The notes: a model not told the origin generated them from the letters alone. A stretch of DNA of 64,000 nucleotides from Calditrichia bacterium (GCA_028284905.1 JANQQU010000043.1:310001-374000); one strand, 5' to 3'; shown: positions 37,152-42,967, numbered from the stretch's first letter. Numbers and translations: made by a program.

Positions 37152-37321
37152 GTATCTCGCCAGCCCCCAGTCGTTGCTGTGCTGATTTTCCTTTGATCCC
37201 TCCCCGGTAAAAAGTATCTTATTCAGGCAATAATGCTTCCGAAAATGTGAGTATATAGAGAGATTAAAGCGCAGAGAACTGACGCTCATAAATGATTTCA
37301 ACCCAATCCTTCGGAGATTGT

Positions 37322-39049
37322 ATGAAAACAAAATTTCTGGTGATCTTACTTTTTTTCTGCACCGTGTTATCTGCGCAGCGAATTGAAGTTTCCGGCGAAC
37401 AAAAATCGAGCATTGCCTTTCAGTTGGAACAGGAGATTTCCAATTTTGTCGGTTTGAAAGAAATTAACCTGAGCCTGGTGGTTCCGGTTGATTTTAACTC
37501 GCTCACTTATGCCCAGTCGATTTCCGAGTTGAATATTGATGTGCAGCCGAAAGCAGATGAACAATCCCAAACCACCGACCTGCGAGGTAACACTATTGTT
37601 CATCATCGCTGGATGACGATACCGGCTCGACCGATTAAAGCCCGGATTACATTCCAGGCCGATACTCGTACTGCGTTATCGGTTTTCCCGGAAAACGACG
37701 TCCCATTTCCTATGAATAATCTCCCCGCTGATGTGCTCCCATACTTGTTGTCAACCGAGCAGGTGCAATCGAATGATCCGGCGATTGCAGCAAAAGCAAG
37801 AGCATTAACAGTCGATGATTCGACGGTATTTCAGGCTTGTCGCAGCATTTTGAATTTTGTCGTTAACAATCTTCAGTATGTGCTGGTGCCGGAAGCGTAT
37901 GATGCCAAATATGCCTTTGACAGCGGGAAGGGAAACTGTCAAAATTACAGCCATTTGGCGGCAGCGATGTTGCGGGTATTGGGAATTCCGGTTCGTATCG
38001 CCAATGGTATTACCCTGGAAAGAGCCTATGATTTGGCACTTGGCAACCGCGCATATGAAATGAATATGGCGCAGGGACGCCATTCCTGGGTAGAAGTATA
38101 TTTGCCGCAGCATGGCTGGGTGCCATTCGATCCACAGCAAACAGAGTTTTTCATCAGCAATCGATATCTACGCATTGAGGTCGGCGTTGATAATAATGAA
38201 AGTGTCAATGATGGTTTGATCCGTTGGCGCGTTCTCGAAAATGTTGCCTCGCAACAACCGAAATTCCAGGAGGCTATTCAGGCAGAATTTAATCGGGATG
38301 TTTCCAGTATGGCTGGCCGGCTGGTTTCCCGGGAAATAGACAATATCCTTTTGACCGTGCCTTTTCGCCGGCCACAGGGAATATTAGCGCAATTACTGTT
38401 GCCGCCGGATACGACGACAACTGCAGCAGCTGATAATGATGAACCTGTCGACTTTCCAAGCTTGGCATATACCAATGCTTTCGAAGCTGGCAACCTGGAC
38501 TTTCCGGAAGGTTTTAATTTTGCATTTCCCCGACAGGTGCAAGGGGGCAGCGCTGCCAATGAATATCAATTACAGCGAAATTTCCTGGTAGAAACTGCTG
38601 AATATGCGACCGGCCGCTATCAATATGCGCAGATGTTTGTTTTGGAAGAGCCAATCCTGCTGGAAAAAGTAGCGCTCGCTTTACACGTTTTTGGTGGCAG
38701 TGGAGATATCTGGCTGGAGCTAAGCGAGGATGACAATGACACGCCCGGCAGAACCGAGGTGCTCAGCCGGCGCATTAACACCAATCAAATACGAATGCCG
38801 CAGGGATACCATTGGCTGGATTTTGATTTTACCGAAGAAAAGATTGTGCTTTCTCCGGGGAAATACTGGGTGTTCCTGAATTTCTCCGGTGGCCCGATTG
38901 TCAATTGGTTCTACTCTTATGGGAAACCGGTTGGCCCGATATTCAGCACGCAGAGCCGGGCTGTTGGTCAGGAAAACTGGCCGCGAATCCTTACGAATGA
39001 GTTTAATTATCGCATTCGTGGAAAATCATCACCGGATTGGCAGGAATAA
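37322..39049 (+). CDS. Secreted transglutaminase-like protein
   Basis: About 575 residues with a signal peptide ending at LSAQ. The transglutaminase core is central: the nucleophilic Cys in GKGNCQNYSHLAAAMLR (about residue 206), His in GRHSWVEVYLP, and Asp in WVPFDPQQTEF make the Cys-His-Asp triad. Bacterial members with this core act as proteases, amidases or crosslinkers in the envelope. An N-terminal beta domain resembles the extensions typical of the family. The last ~150 residues form a beta-sandwich-like domain (VFGGSGDIWLELSEDDNDTPG), plausibly a carbohydrate- or cell-surface-binding module. GGAG precedes the ATG at 37322. No neighbour clarifies the substrate. Confidence 0.85.
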   Translation: MKTKFLVILLFFCTVLSAQRIEVSGEQKSSIAFQLEQEISNFVGLKEINLSLVVPVDFNSLTYAQSISELNIDVQPKADEQSQTTDLRGNTIVHHRWMTIPARPIKARITFQADTRTALSVFPENDVPFPMNNLPADVLPYLLSTEQVQSNDPAIAAKARALTVDDSTVFQACRSILNFVVNNLQYVLVPEAYDAKYAFDSGKGNCQNYSHLAAAMLRVLGIPVRIANGITLERAYDLALGNRAYEMNMAQGRHSWVEVYLPQHGWVPFDPQQTEFFISNRYLRIEVGVDNNESVNDGLIRWRVLENVASQQPKFQEAIQAEFNRDVSSMAGRLVSREIDNILLTVPFRRPQGILAQLLLPPDTTTTAAADNDEPVDFPSLAYTNAFEAGNLDFPEGFNFAFPRQVQGGSAANEYQLQRNFLVETAEYATGRYQYAQMFVLEEPILLEKVALALHVFGGSGDIWLELSEDDNDTPGRTEVLSRRINTNQIRMPQGYHWLDFDFTEEKIVLSPGKYWVFLNFSGGPIVNWFYSYGKPVGPIFSTQSRAVGQENWPRILTNEFNYRIRGKSSPDWQE

Positions 39050-39185: not shown

Positions 39186-40250
39186 ATGAATACCATGCCA
39201 AATACAACCGCGCGCCCCTTGCTGGTTTTTGCCCATCGGGGCGAAGCCCAGGTGTTCCTGAAAAAATTACACCTGAAGAGTATGCCATTCCATTTTGATG
39301 GTTTATATCAATCTAATGATGCCTATTTGCTCATTACCGGAGAGGGACTGCAAAATGCGTCCGAACGCTTGTCTGCTGTCTTAGCTGCGTTGCGGGAAAG
39401 TGTTCAGCGAGTGGTAAACCTGGGGATTGCCGGCGGGTTAGATAGCGACACGGATTTGGAAAAAATCTGCAGCATCCGCACCGTTTATCGCAGTGATAAT
39501 GCGGAGATGCAGTTTAAAACGTTTACCACGTCCGATGCCGCTGCTTCTTTGGATATTATTTCCGCATCGCAACGAATTCTTCGCCGGGAATCCGCAGAAA
39601 AACTGAAGCCTTTTGCAAGCATCGTCGATCGCGAAGCCTGGGCATGTGCGTCAACGACTGATCTTTTTAAAGTGCCTTTTTATTGTTACAAGCTATTGAG
39701 TGATTTGCCCGAGGAAGGGACGGTTTGTCTGGATATCCGTGCGCAGGCAGAAAGATACAGCACGCTGCTGTTTGAATTTTACCAAAATGTTCATTTAAAC
39801 ACACCGCATGCTGAAGCCAGCCTTTCTAACGGTCTGCTGCCAGCTGGATTTTATGCATCCACTTCACAATTACGCCAATTGAAAACATTGTTAAAGCACT
39901 TATGCATCAAATTGCAGATATCAGAAGCGGAAGTCATCCGCAGGGCTAATCCTGAAAAAATAATTGAGCGGGAAAGCAAGGAAAAACAACGTACATCTTT
40001 ATTGTTACAGGAACTGACCGATCTCCTCAATCCCTTTAATGCCCGTTTACGAGAGCGCTTGGATGATTTAACAGCCCCCCTCGCCTCTGCCGGGTGCCGG
40101 GTGAAATTTTCCCGGGATTATGAAGATGATGAAGTGACGATTACTGCCCGGATTCGCCACCCACAACATTTGAAGAAGCTGCAAAATGCCTTGGTCGCCT
40201 TCGACTATGATGCCGTTTTAAAAGTGCTACAAGGCGAGGACAAACTGTAA
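39186..40250 (+). CDS. Nucleoside phosphorylase/MTAN-like protein with extra C-terminal domain
   Basis: A 354-residue protein. The first ~180 residues follow the nucleoside phosphorylase/MTA-SAH nucleosidase fold: VNLGIAGGLDSDTDLEKICS matches the phosphate/substrate loop, SIVDREAWACAS matches the family's 'DMEGAA' purine/ribose-binding segment with its Glu, and KLLSD supplies the Asp corresponding to the catalytic Asp of 'ISD'. A Glu in the first loop (AHRGEAQVF) is also present. The remaining ~170 residues (SEAEVIRRANPEKIIERESK, then LNPFNARLRERL) form a helical domain of unknown type. Its stop codon overlaps the next gene's ATG (TAATG), so it is tightly coupled to the radical-SAM protein. 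It may remove 5'-deoxyadenosine or related nucleosides. Confidence 0.72.
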   Translation: MNTMPNTTARPLLVFAHRGEAQVFLKKLHLKSMPFHFDGLYQSNDAYLLITGEGLQNASERLSAVLAALRESVQRVVNLGIAGGLDSDTDLEKICSIRTVYRSDNAEMQFKTFTTSDAAASLDIISASQRILRRESAEKLKPFASIVDREAWACASTTDLFKVPFYCYKLLSDLPEEGTVCLDIRAQAERYSTLLFEFYQNVHLNTPHAEASLSNGLLPAGFYASTSQLRQLKTLLKHLCIKLQISEAEVIRRANPEKIIERESKEKQRTSLLLQELTDLLNPFNARLRERLDDLTAPLASAGCRVKFSRDYEDDEVTITARIRHPQHLKKLQNALVAFDYDAVLKVLQGEDKL

Positions 40251-41260
40251 TGCTGTTTGAAAGAATCTTTGTCGAAAAACAGGTGCAGCAGCATCCGCAA
40301 ACATTGCGAGTTCAGGAAGCCTTGCCGAAAATTCCCGTAACCTATATCGATAAAATCTCCGACGTTTTTGAAAAAGCCCGTAAGCCGTATTTGCAAAAAC
40401 GTGATTCTCTCAACCTTTTCCTGGGACGAAAAGAAGGGCAGCTTGTTAAAGAAGCCCCGGATGCATACGGGTTATCCGGTGATCCGCACTATTACTTTAT
40501 CCACGCTTACAACTGTATTTATGAATGCGAATATTGTTACCTGCAGGGGTATTTTCACTCTCCGGATCTGGTAATGTTTGTTAATCACGATGAAATATTG
40601 GCGGAGATGAAACAGATCTGTCGACAGCATTCCCCTGAGGAAACTGTCTGGTTTCATGCCGGGGAGTTCAGCGACTCCCTTGCGTTGGCTCATCTATCCG
40701 GCGAGTTGCCGGAATACTGGGATTTCTTCCGCGAAATGCCGAATGCGCGGATGGAGTTGCGTACTAAATCCGTCAATATCAAGCCGTTGTTAACATTGGG
40801 CCCACTGGAAAACATTATTATTACCTTTTCCCTTTCACCAAGCGCCGCTGCCCGCCAATATGATCGTAAAACCCCTTCAACCCAGGCGCGCTTAAATGCG
40901 ATGAAGCGCCTCGCCGATGCCGGTTTCCAGATGGGTATCCACCTCGATCCTATCGTTTATGATGAACGGTTTGAAAGTGATTATCAGCAGCTGGTCACGG
41001 AGATGCTGCAAGCGGTTCCAGTTGAACAAGTCAACTATATCTCTCTCGGCGTTGTGAGATTTACCCGGGATGTATTTCATGAGTTTTCTAAGAATTATCC
41101 AAAGTCTGGATTGCTTGCCGGAGAATTTGTGAAAAGCTTCGATAATAAGGTGCGCTACAATCGTCCGCAGCGCCTTTATCTTCTAAAGACCGTACAGAGA
41201 ATGTGTGTTGAGGGGGGAGTGGCGCCGGAAAAGGTATATCTTTGTATGGAAGCGGAATAA
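40250..41260 (+). CDS. Radical SAM protein of the spore photoproduct lyase family
   Basis: A 336-residue protein with the [4Fe-4S] motif C89-x3-C93-x2-C96 in NCIYECEYCYLQGYF. Both Tyr residues of the EYCYLQ segment, which in characterised lyases help the hydrogen relay, are kept. The family continues with FSLSPSAAARQYDRKTPS and GVVRFTRDVFHEFSKNYPKS. The hydrogen-donor Cys of the Bacillus enzyme (in SCTSD) is replaced: the aligned segment reads HAGEFSD (136-142). The organism is not expected to form spores, and the gene overlaps a nucleosidase-like gene. It may repair DNA or modify another substrate by 5'-deoxyadenosyl radical chemistry. Related proteins exist in non-sporulating bacteria. Confidence 0.85.
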   Translation: MLFERIFVEKQVQQHPQTLRVQEALPKIPVTYIDKISDVFEKARKPYLQKRDSLNLFLGRKEGQLVKEAPDAYGLSGDPHYYFIHAYNCIYECEYCYLQGYFHSPDLVMFVNHDEILAEMKQICRQHSPEETVWFHAGEFSDSLALAHLSGELPEYWDFFREMPNARMELRTKSVNIKPLLTLGPLENIIITFSLSPSAAARQYDRKTPSTQARLNAMKRLADAGFQMGIHLDPIVYDERFESDYQQLVTEMLQAVPVEQVNYISLGVVRFTRDVFHEFSKNYPKSGLLAGEFVKSFDNKVRYNRPQRLYLLKTVQRMCVEGGVAPEKVYLCMEAE

Positions 41261-41371
41261 TTTTACCCGAGATAAAAGTGTTGTTTGAATATTTTTTTTG
41301 CATTATTTAAATAAATATGATATAACCGGGTATAAACTACTGACAATATTGACAATCAAAGCCTGTTCTTG

Positions 41372-42967
41372 ATGAAAAAAACCGACGGTCAAAAAATAAA
41401 TTCCTTTGATACTTCGACCACATCCCGCCTGGTCATCAAGATTGCTTTGTTCTTTACGGTGCTGATCTTCATTGCGACAATTGGATCCGGCTTTTTCCAT
41501 TACAATAAGAACGTTTCCCTGATTCTGAAAAACCTCCAGAACCAATTGACCCTGGCGGCAAACACTATTGCTGTTACCATCGATGGCGACGCCTATCAAA
41601 AGCTGGAAGGCAAGGCTTCGGTCGGCACGCCGGAATATCGCAAAATAAGATTGGTGCTGGAGCAATTTATTCAGTTCAACAAAGATTTGGGTTTTGAGGA
41701 AGATTGCGTTTATACCTTTCGGCAGATTTCGGATGACTCCCTGGAATTTACGGTGATGTTACACGATCGCTATGTCGGAAACCGCTATGCGATTCGCCCG
41801 GAAATGCGGCCGACGCTGACGGAAGGCAAACCGGGGCGCACCGATATGTATCATGATGAAAACGGTACCTGGGTTTCCGCATATGCCCCGATTCTCAATC
41901 GGCAGTTTGAAATCGTTGGCATTGTAGAAGTCGATTTCAAAGACAATGTATACCTGATGGCTTTGACTGACGAGAAGTATACCATCATTCTTTTTTCGCT
42001 GGTGAGTGCATTGGCGGCAATGTTGGCTGCAGTGCTGCTCAGTCGGCTTATTTCGCGGCCGATCAATAAAATTTCCAACGCCGTTATTCAATTCTCTGCC
42101 GGCGACCTGAACACCCAGGTGGAGGTGAAAGGCCGGGATGAGATCGGCATGCTGGCACGTGCCTTTAACTATATGGTGCAGGAAATCAAAGAGAAGGAAT
42201 TCATTCGCAGTCAAAATCAGGAATTGCGAGAGGCTTATCGCAAATTAGATACCCTTAACAAGACGCTGCAGGAAGCGAACACCTTGAAGACGGAATTCCT
42301 CAACATCGCCGCCCACGATCTTAAAAATCCACTGCAGGCTATTCTTGGATTTGCGGAAATGATAATGAACAAGGAAGATCAGCATCCGCATGTTTACCGG
42401 AATGCCGAAAAAATCCATCGCGCCACGCAAAGGATGTTCGGCATTATCAGTCATTTGCTGGACAAAACTGCCCTGGAACAAGGGGCTATTATGCTGAACA
42501 AAGAATTGGCTGATGTCGGGAACATTGCCCGCCAGGTAATCAACCAGAATCAAACTATCGCAGCGCAAAAAAATCAGCGGATCGAATTGACTTGCGAAAA
42601 AGGCTGCGAAGCGATGGTTGATGTCATCCGTATACACGAAGTGCTCGATAATCTCTTGAGCAATGCTATTAAATATTCTGAACCGGGAAAAGCTGTGCGG
42701 GTGCGAGTGCGCTGCACTGCCCCGGGCGGTGTAAAAAATGGCGTACGATTTTCCGTGCAGGATCGTGGTGCCGGCCTTAGTAAATCCGATATGCTGCAGC
42801 TTTTTCAAAAATATTCCAAACTTTCTTCGAAGCCTACCGCCGGAGAATCTTCAACGGGGATTGGCCTTTCTGTTGTGAAACAGTTGGTGGAATTACATGG
42901 TGGCAAAGTATGGGCTGAAAGCGATGGGAAAGGCAAGGGGACGACATTCTTTGTCGAACTGCCCTGA
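41372..42967 (+). CDS. Membrane sensor histidine kinase
   Basis: A 531-residue kinase. The first transmembrane helix is about residues 21-43, a periplasmic sensor domain about 45-190, the second helix 195-225 (IILFSLVSALAAMLAAVLLS), HAMP 226-275, and a coiled coil. The HisKA domain has the phosphorylated His in NIAAHDLKNPLQAILG; the HATPase domain has N box DNLLSNAIKYS, G1 QDRGAGLS and G2 GIGLSVVKQLVELHGG. No response regulator is adjacent, so its partner is elsewhere. The ATG at 41372 has no clear ribosome-binding site. The DUF3667 gene follows after six bases, suggesting cotranscription. Confidence 0.93.
   Translation: MKKTDGQKINSFDTSTTSRLVIKIALFFTVLIFIATIGSGFFHYNKNVSLILKNLQNQLTLAANTIAVTIDGDAYQKLEGKASVGTPEYRKIRLVLEQFIQFNKDLGFEEDCVYTFRQISDDSLEFTVMLHDRYVGNRYAIRPEMRPTLTEGKPGRTDMYHDENGTWVSAYAPILNRQFEIVGIVEVDFKDNVYLMALTDEKYTIILFSLVSALAAMLAAVLLSRLISRPINKISNAVIQFSAGDLNTQVEVKGRDEIGMLARAFNYMVQEIKEKEFIRSQNQELREAYRKLDTLNKTLQEANTLKTEFLNIAAHDLKNPLQAILGFAEMIMNKEDQHPHVYRNAEKIHRATQRMFGIISHLLDKTALEQGAIMLNKELADVGNIARQVINQNQTIAAQKNQRIELTCEKGCEAMVDVIRIHEVLDNLLSNAIKYSEPGKAVRVRVRCTAPGGVKNGVRFSVQDRGAGLSKSDMLQLFQKYSKLSSKPTAGESSTGIGLSVVKQLVELHGGKVWAESDGKGKGTTFFVELP

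Follow-up and report, generated by a model that had tools for sequence, protein, structure and literature searches.

A C-terminal partner domain of spore-photoproduct-lyase-like radical SAM proteins, joined to an MTAN-type nucleosidase in a Calditrichota-like bacterium

The closest described relatives of the radical SAM protein analysed here, P0002, are the spore photoproduct lyases (SPLs) of Bacillus and Geobacillus (SplB; PF20903, TIGR04070), which have in common with it the radical SAM core, the CxxxCxxC cluster, the Tyr relay positions and ~25-30% identity in the core. The two differ in the hydrogen-donor residue (Cys141 in SplB, Glu139 in P0002), in the YxCME motif, which occurs only in P0002, and in the upstream gene, which encodes a SplA-domain protein in the case of SplB, whereas P0002 is preceded by a partner bearing a distinct C-terminal domain (CTD) in a host without spore genes. 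The TIGR03886 spore photoproduct lyase family proteins, like P0002, represent the SPL superfamily in non-sporulating bacteria, but the donor Cys was kept in three of the four examined, and they belong to a separate branch of the tree. SplB-like photolyases have also been described in vegetative repair neighbourhoods, with ImuB-C, DUF4130 and other SOS-type neighbours, and the sections of that paper drawn on here describe no CTD, ParB or nucleosidase partner for them, unlike for P0002 (PMC3765255). The upstream protein of the pair, P0001, shares its fold and catalytic residues with MTAN (Pfs) and the H. pylori futalosine hydrolase, but it has an extra CTD, scores far under the MTAN equivalog cut-offs and adjoins an SPL. 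The N-terminal and HTH domains of ParB/Spo0J/Noc are common to the CTD partners of other bacteria, which differ from the ParB proteins themselves in carrying the SPL-partner CTD and in that their next gene is often an SPL. Pairs of a radical SAM enzyme and a PNP-fold nucleosidase are known from the hopanoid (HpnH/HpnG) and menaquinone (MqnE/MqnB) pathways; in contrast to P0001/P0002, the nucleosidase acts there on an adenosylated pathway product, and the radical SAM enzymes belong to different families. A literature search, mostly outside subscription journals, found no paper on an SPL partnership with a nucleosidase or ParB, or on the Fusobacterium fusion described below. SPL, MTAN and ParB are already known; what is new according to the literature searched is a CTD dedicated to SPLs, with heads that can be interchanged, and the pairing or fusion of nucleosidase and SPL.

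The gene pair lies in a 64,000-nucleotide stretch of DNA, the whole of which was analysed (the window; Calditrichia bacterium, GCA_028284905.1 JANQQU010000043.1:310001-374000), from a Calditrichota-like genome of 8.55 Mb, whose nearest named relative in the P0002 genome search was a Calditrichaeota MAG (62% identity over P0002). Both ORFs are intact and have a single base in common at TAATG, in agreement with the overlap noticed in the original prediction (Table 1). A role in anti-phage defence was considered and rejected, since PADLOC matched neither P0001 nor P0002.

Table 1. Position of the gene pair, its functional residues and its syntenic markers in the window
Feature	Position	Strand	Basis
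P0001, MTAN-type nucleosidase domain + SPL-partner C-terminal domain (CTD), 354 aa	39186..40250	+	
P0001 N-terminal nucleosidase domain, residues 1-205, MTAN fold	39186..39800	+	Foldseek; sub-threshold NCBIfam nucleosidase models
P0001 Glu20 codon, AHRGEA loop, presumed water-activating Glu	39243..39245	+	invariant in 36/36 pair proteins
P0001 Glu150 codon, DREAW, equivalent of the MTAN ribose-binding Glu	39633..39635	+	phmmer alignment to 4l0m; at least 90% conserved
P0001 Asp173 codon, LLSD, equivalent of the MTAN purine-N7 Asp	39702..39704	+	phmmer alignment to 4l0m; at least 90% conserved
P0001 CTD, residues 216-354	39831..40247	+	CTD profile; AlphaFold2 pLDDT 95.8
TAATG stop/start overlap, P0001/P0002	40248..40252	+	likely translational coupling
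P0002, Glu-type SPL-superfamily radical SAM protein, 336 aa	40250..41260	+	Pfam SPL, TIGR04070, PDB 4fhg
P0002 CxxxCxxC, C89/C93/C96, with Y95 and Y97 (Bs Y97/Y99 equivalents)	40514..40540	+	
P0002 Glu139 codon, position of the Bacillus hydrogen-donor Cys141 (Gt Cys140)	40664..40666	+	
P0002 Cys332 codon, C-terminal Y-x-C-M-E motif; hypothetical alternative donor	41243..41245	+	
Transglutaminase-like gene, upstream syntenic marker, outside the module	37292..39049	+	
Sensor histidine kinase gene, downstream syntenic marker, outside the module	41369..42967	+	

The N-terminus of P0001 gave weak matches to the PNP_UDP_1, NF004168 nucleosidase, futalosine hydrolase and MTAN models, all below the curated cut-offs (for the MTAN models, 20 bits versus 169 with NF004079 and 15.8 versus 73.8 with TIGR01704), and a ParB_N domain was absent from the protein in the Pfam profile search. 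Foldseek comparison of the AlphaFold2 model (pLDDT 92.6) found the nucleosidase domain similar to H. pylori MTAN and futalosine hydrolase (E ~1e-12, TMt ~0.7); residues 1-205 are an MTAN-fold nucleosidase according to the predicted structure and, weakly, the sequence. The MTAN landmarks E20, D148-R-E150 and S172-D173 were located, the latter two corresponding to the DREAWA Glu and LLSD Asp of the original prediction, and E20, placed by inspection from its position in the first loop, is presumably the equivalent of E. coli MTAN Glu12. The active-site Glu/Glu/Asp set is kept in 34 of the 36 pair proteins. The partner at locus L030 has a degraded nucleosidase with the active site gone, and that at L033 is devoid of the SD motif, both with the architecture retained.

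P0002 scored above the cut-off of the Pfam SPL model PF20903 (99.1 versus 27 bits), and under those of TIGR04070, the canonical spore photoproduct lyase (116.9 versus 400 bits), and TIGR03886 (80 versus 437 bits). The cluster and the two relay tyrosines that the original prediction had attributed to it are in place: C89, C93 and C96 are invariant across 47 SPLs, and the relay tyrosines of the canonical enzyme (Bs Y97/Y99) are represented by Y95 and Y97, for the second of which many Glu/Gln-type relatives have Phe, Ile, Val or Thr. Comparison with the Geobacillus SPL structure (PDB 4fhg, E 6e-18) aligned E139 with C140, thus the predicted loss of the donor Cys holds; however, it is no peculiarity of P0002 but the rule in CTD-linked SPLs, Glu being present at this position in 58 of the 59 SPLs that adjoin a CTD gene and Asp in the remaining one. 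The same position is Gln in 12 longer SPL-type proteins of the Calditrichota class and Tyr, Ser, Thr or Asp in the nucleosidase-SPL fusions, and among the SPLs compared the donor Cys was confined to canonical SplB and three TIGR03886-type proteins. SPL-type proteins of ~420-470 aa from the class of the window (L084-L095), with Gln in a GTGQSSDS context, also have an N-terminal extension. Another Cys, Cys332 of the C-terminal YxCME motif, is kept in all 38 proteins of the nucleosidase clade and in most Glu/Gln-type ones, is Ser or Asn in other relatives, and has no counterpart in canonical SplB, which ends in IEYFT. From this distribution, Cys332 is a possible, hypothetical alternative hydrogen donor.

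Behind the nucleosidase, the original prediction had placed a domain of ~170 residues which it could not assign. The domain itself was confirmed, with a length corrected to about 140 residues (216-354): it folds confidently as a separate unit (AlphaFold2 pLDDT 95.8), and consists of helices followed by a beta-beta-alpha-alpha arrangement with invariant Pro and Glu residues. Pfam and NCBIfam profile searches with the CTD gave no match. Its assignment to a known fold was rejected, as the PDB structure search yielded no structural match (best E 1.8) and the profile search returned only helical matches, e.g. apolipoprotein.

When P0002 was searched against 84,980 species genomes, 37 loci were obtained, the majority from Bdellovibrionota MAGs, plus Spirochaetota and one Aminicenantes. 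A P0001 homolog was detected immediately upstream in 33 of them by tblastn, and direct reading revealed an upstream CTD-bearing ORF in the remaining four (L030, L031, L032 and L036), so the genes are kept together in nearly all loci; the CTD assignment is weaker in L006 and L035, both with a divergent extreme tail. In 33 of 38 loci, counting that of the window, the start of the SPL gene overlaps the stop of its partner, which is the arrangement expected for translational coupling and makes such coupling likely. The pair arrangement is far beyond chance. A third conserved gene of the module was also considered and rejected, since the neighbouring aldo/keto reductase and glycosyltransferase genes are mostly those of Bdellovibrionota loci and no gene common to the phyla was seen. 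A divergently transcribed aldo/keto reductase gene (e.g. L010:2946-3968, minus strand), then a glycosyltransferase gene, are found next to the pair (upstream flank, L003-L038), the former in 29 and the latter in 25 loci, which is probably ordinary lineage synteny. A search of the IMG/VR viral contigs gave only distant SPL relatives (L144-L149).

The association is equally apparent at the level of genomes. The CTD profile had matches in 73 of 385 genomes, 138 of which were positive for SPL at an E value of at most 1e-15. SPL and CTD occurred together in 70 of the 73 CTD genomes, while SPL was present in 68 of the 312 genomes without CTD (OR 84; Fisher p 7e-34, which ignores kinship and reads only as a strong association), and two of the three genomes having CTD without SPL are MAGs of 81% and 62% completeness. 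The CTD gene is followed directly by a same-strand SPL gene in 43 of the 73 CTD genomes.

The original prediction did not recognise that the constant partner of these SPLs is the CTD, usually with a ParB-like head and sometimes headless. The spirochaete partners at L031 and L032 consist of the CTD only, the head in genome G063 (L069) is made up of ParB_N and HTH_ParB, and ParB_N was found by profile search in several other CTD partners as well. Profile-profile alignment (hhalign) of the nucleosidase-type CTD with the ParB-type one gave 97.4% probability (E 1e-11) and with the stand-alone one 98.4% (E 9e-15), and by these scores the CTDs of nucleosidase-headed, ParB-headed and headless partners constitute one family. 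Here the head is a nucleosidase, many other bacteria have a ParB-like protein in its place, and some partners have no head. Considering this constancy of the domain and its adjacency to SPL, P0001 and P0002 very probably form a complex through the CTD, which would serve for docking. A Roseomonas haemaphysalidis plasmid (L141:7-4420) carries repA, repB (a ParB relative) and two consecutive spore photoproduct lyase family genes, and no CTD was detected in this region.

The nucleosidase and the SPL are also found in a single chain. Fusobacterium vincentii encodes a 623-residue fusion in which an SPL domain comes after an MTAN-type domain (L097:4107-5978), and similar fusions of 540-586 residues occur in four other genomes (G137, G156, G274 and G292; L132-L135). 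The nucleosidase Glu, Glu and Ser-Asp residues are kept in all five. The four latter fusions have a short interdomain segment, the start of which resembles by eye the first CTD helix, without a match to the CTD profile. Such short linkers would fit a docking domain that is no longer needed when both enzymes are part of one chain. The F. vincentii protein has Tyr at the donor position, and its gene is on a 2.1 Mb record labelled as a plasmid, which is probably the chromosome. In the SPL tree, the nucleosidase-paired and nucleosidase-fused SPLs, together with the two spirochaete SPLs having a CTD-only partner, made up one side of a branch with 99/93 support, and since it is a single branch, the SPL-nucleosidase association may have arisen once. 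A further arrangement was seen in L138 (minus-strand ORF, 695 aa), where an SPL domain stands behind a domain resembling, by eye, the three-Cys-motif partner protein (TcmP).

Relatives of the same family offered a comparison at the locus itself. The gene order of the window is transglutaminase-like gene, nucleosidase-CTD, SPL and histidine kinase, while G004, G005 and G006 have the transglutaminase-like gene, a stand-alone nucleosidase of ~206 aa and the histidine kinase, and in G001 the nucleosidase is followed by the histidine kinase. In these four genomes the CTD and this SPL are both missing and the nucleosidase is kept. The transglutaminase-like ortholog was identified upstream of the stand-alone nucleosidase in L042, L043 and L045, and the histidine kinase ortholog follows both the pair (L002, L040) and the loci without CTD and SPL (L042, L043, L045, L046). 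The stand-alone nucleosidase is separated from the next gene by ~70 bases or less; a CTD remnant in this position, hinted at by the read-through homology that tblastn found in L043, was discarded, as translation and a CTD-only search were negative. G005 carries a different SPL-type protein elsewhere (L095). The joint presence or absence of CTD and SPL links the domain to this enzyme; the persistence of the nucleosidase without them indicates that this SPL is not the sole source of its substrate, which argues against the earlier suggestion that P0001 binds an SPL-specific modified nucleoside. The nucleosidase tree is poorly supported, and the change may have been either a loss or a gain of CTD and SPL.

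As expected in the original prediction, signs of sporulation were lacking: SASP and Spo0A gave no match in 13 carrier genomes including that of the window, and the Bacillus subtilis control was positive. The classical spore photoproduct in SASP-coated DNA is therefore an unlikely lesion, and we lean toward the view that P0002 acts on damaged or modified DNA. According to our favoured account, both genes would encode one complex, in which P0002 probably targets damaged or modified pyrimidines in the DNA of vegetative cells, and P0001 would be its dedicated partner, the CTD docking onto the SPL and bearing an accessory head, here a catalytically competent MTAN-type adenine nucleosidase. The nucleosidase-headed clade spans Calditrichota, Bdellovibrionota and Spirochaetota, with direct fusion in Fusobacterium and others, and elsewhere a ParB-like head on the same CTD may bring the SPL to DNA.

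In Bacillus SPL, the C141A or Y99F mutation abolished SAM regeneration, and 5'-dA was formed in a 1:1 ratio to the SP repaired (PMC3742179). Because of these results, a Cys-less SPL is expected to release one 5'-deoxyadenosine per turnover; P0002, having no donor Cys, would consume SAM stoichiometrically, although the natural Glu enzyme may behave unlike an Ala mutant. As 5'-deoxyadenosine inhibits radical SAM enzymes (PMC8102628), a tethered MTAN-type nucleosidase would be a plausible remedy, hydrolysing 5'-deoxyadenosine, and probably also MTA, where it is produced, and the self-clearing module raised in the original prediction fits the release predicted from the C141A data. The P0001 nucleosidase is likely to hydrolyse 5'-deoxyadenosine and probably MTA, but whether the tethering serves clearance of the SPL by-product is evenly poised, and we hold the account as a whole, with CTD docking and a tethered nucleosidase clearing the 5'-deoxyadenosine of a Glu-type SPL, to be an even call as well. 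By-product clearance is not essential, since the nucleosidase is degraded in L030, without the SD motif in L033 and missing from the two spirochaete partners; the many Glu-type SPLs with ParB-like or no adjacent partners also speak against this account, as does the donor position of the fusions, where Glu is replaced by other residues. The nucleosidase, which persists in relatives without SPL, has another substrate, possibly MTA/5'-dAdo/SAH in general.

The main alternative is a housekeeping MTA/5'-deoxyadenosine nucleosidase that became joined to the CTD incidentally, with an effect on its expression or location and no metabolic part in SPL turnover, the CTD alone serving the SPL. The stand-alone orthologs at the same locus and the two CTD-only spirochaete partners are in line with it, as is the genome of the window, where no second MTAN-like protein was found besides P0001, the two other PNP-family proteins being read from sequence as PNP-I and DeoD type. 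Nevertheless, nucleosidase and SPL are linked in two ways, as the overlapping pair with CTD and as the single-chain fusion, and the maintenance of both across several phyla suggests a benefit from proximity, thus we regard an incidental junction as unlikely. It is quite unlikely that the SPL adenosylates its substrate with 5'-deoxyadenosyl for subsequent removal of adenine by the nucleosidase, following the established logic of HpnH/HpnG and MqnE/MqnB. The nucleosidase domain does match the futalosine hydrolase and HpnG models weakly, but hydrogen abstraction is the chemistry of the characterised SPLs, relatives without SPL also have the nucleosidase, and CTD-linked SPLs with a ParB-like head or none have no nucleosidase step. 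A non-catalytic domain that senses or binds a modified nucleoside made or recognised by the SPL would explain why L030 and L033 retain the architecture without catalytic residues; the conservation of the active-site Glu, Glu and Asp in nearly all pair proteins and every fusion, and the stand-alone orthologs without SPL, make such a sensor very improbable. Finally, conventional repair of 5-thyminyl-5,6-dihydrothymine, with Cys332 replacing Cys141 as donor, could draw on the SPL family match, both relay tyrosines and the Cys332 of the nucleosidase clade, which canonical SplB lacks, but we consider it to have very little chance given the lack of SASP and Spo0A in the carrier genomes, the substitutions of the second relay Tyr in many Glu/Gln-type relatives and the Ser or Asn at the Cys332 position in others.

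Beyond the favoured clearance account of this locus, a broader reading can be offered only tentatively, namely that Cys-less SPLs with a docking domain may form a widespread vegetative nucleic-acid repair or editing system, present in ~1/5 of the sampled genomes, with interchangeable heads (a ParB-like one, possibly a DNA clamp loading the enzyme, or a 5'-deoxyadenosine-clearing nucleosidase) and with Cys332 or another group as donor. A predicted role can now be given to the CTD, a domain outside the curated libraries searched. SPL relatives are common in bacteria that never sporulate, and a dedicated partner domain provides a handle on their function, linking these non-spore enzymes to ParB-like proteins or to a by-product nucleosidase. 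The stoichiometric use of SAM by Cys-less SPLs and the need for by-product removal at the active site have thereby become testable questions.
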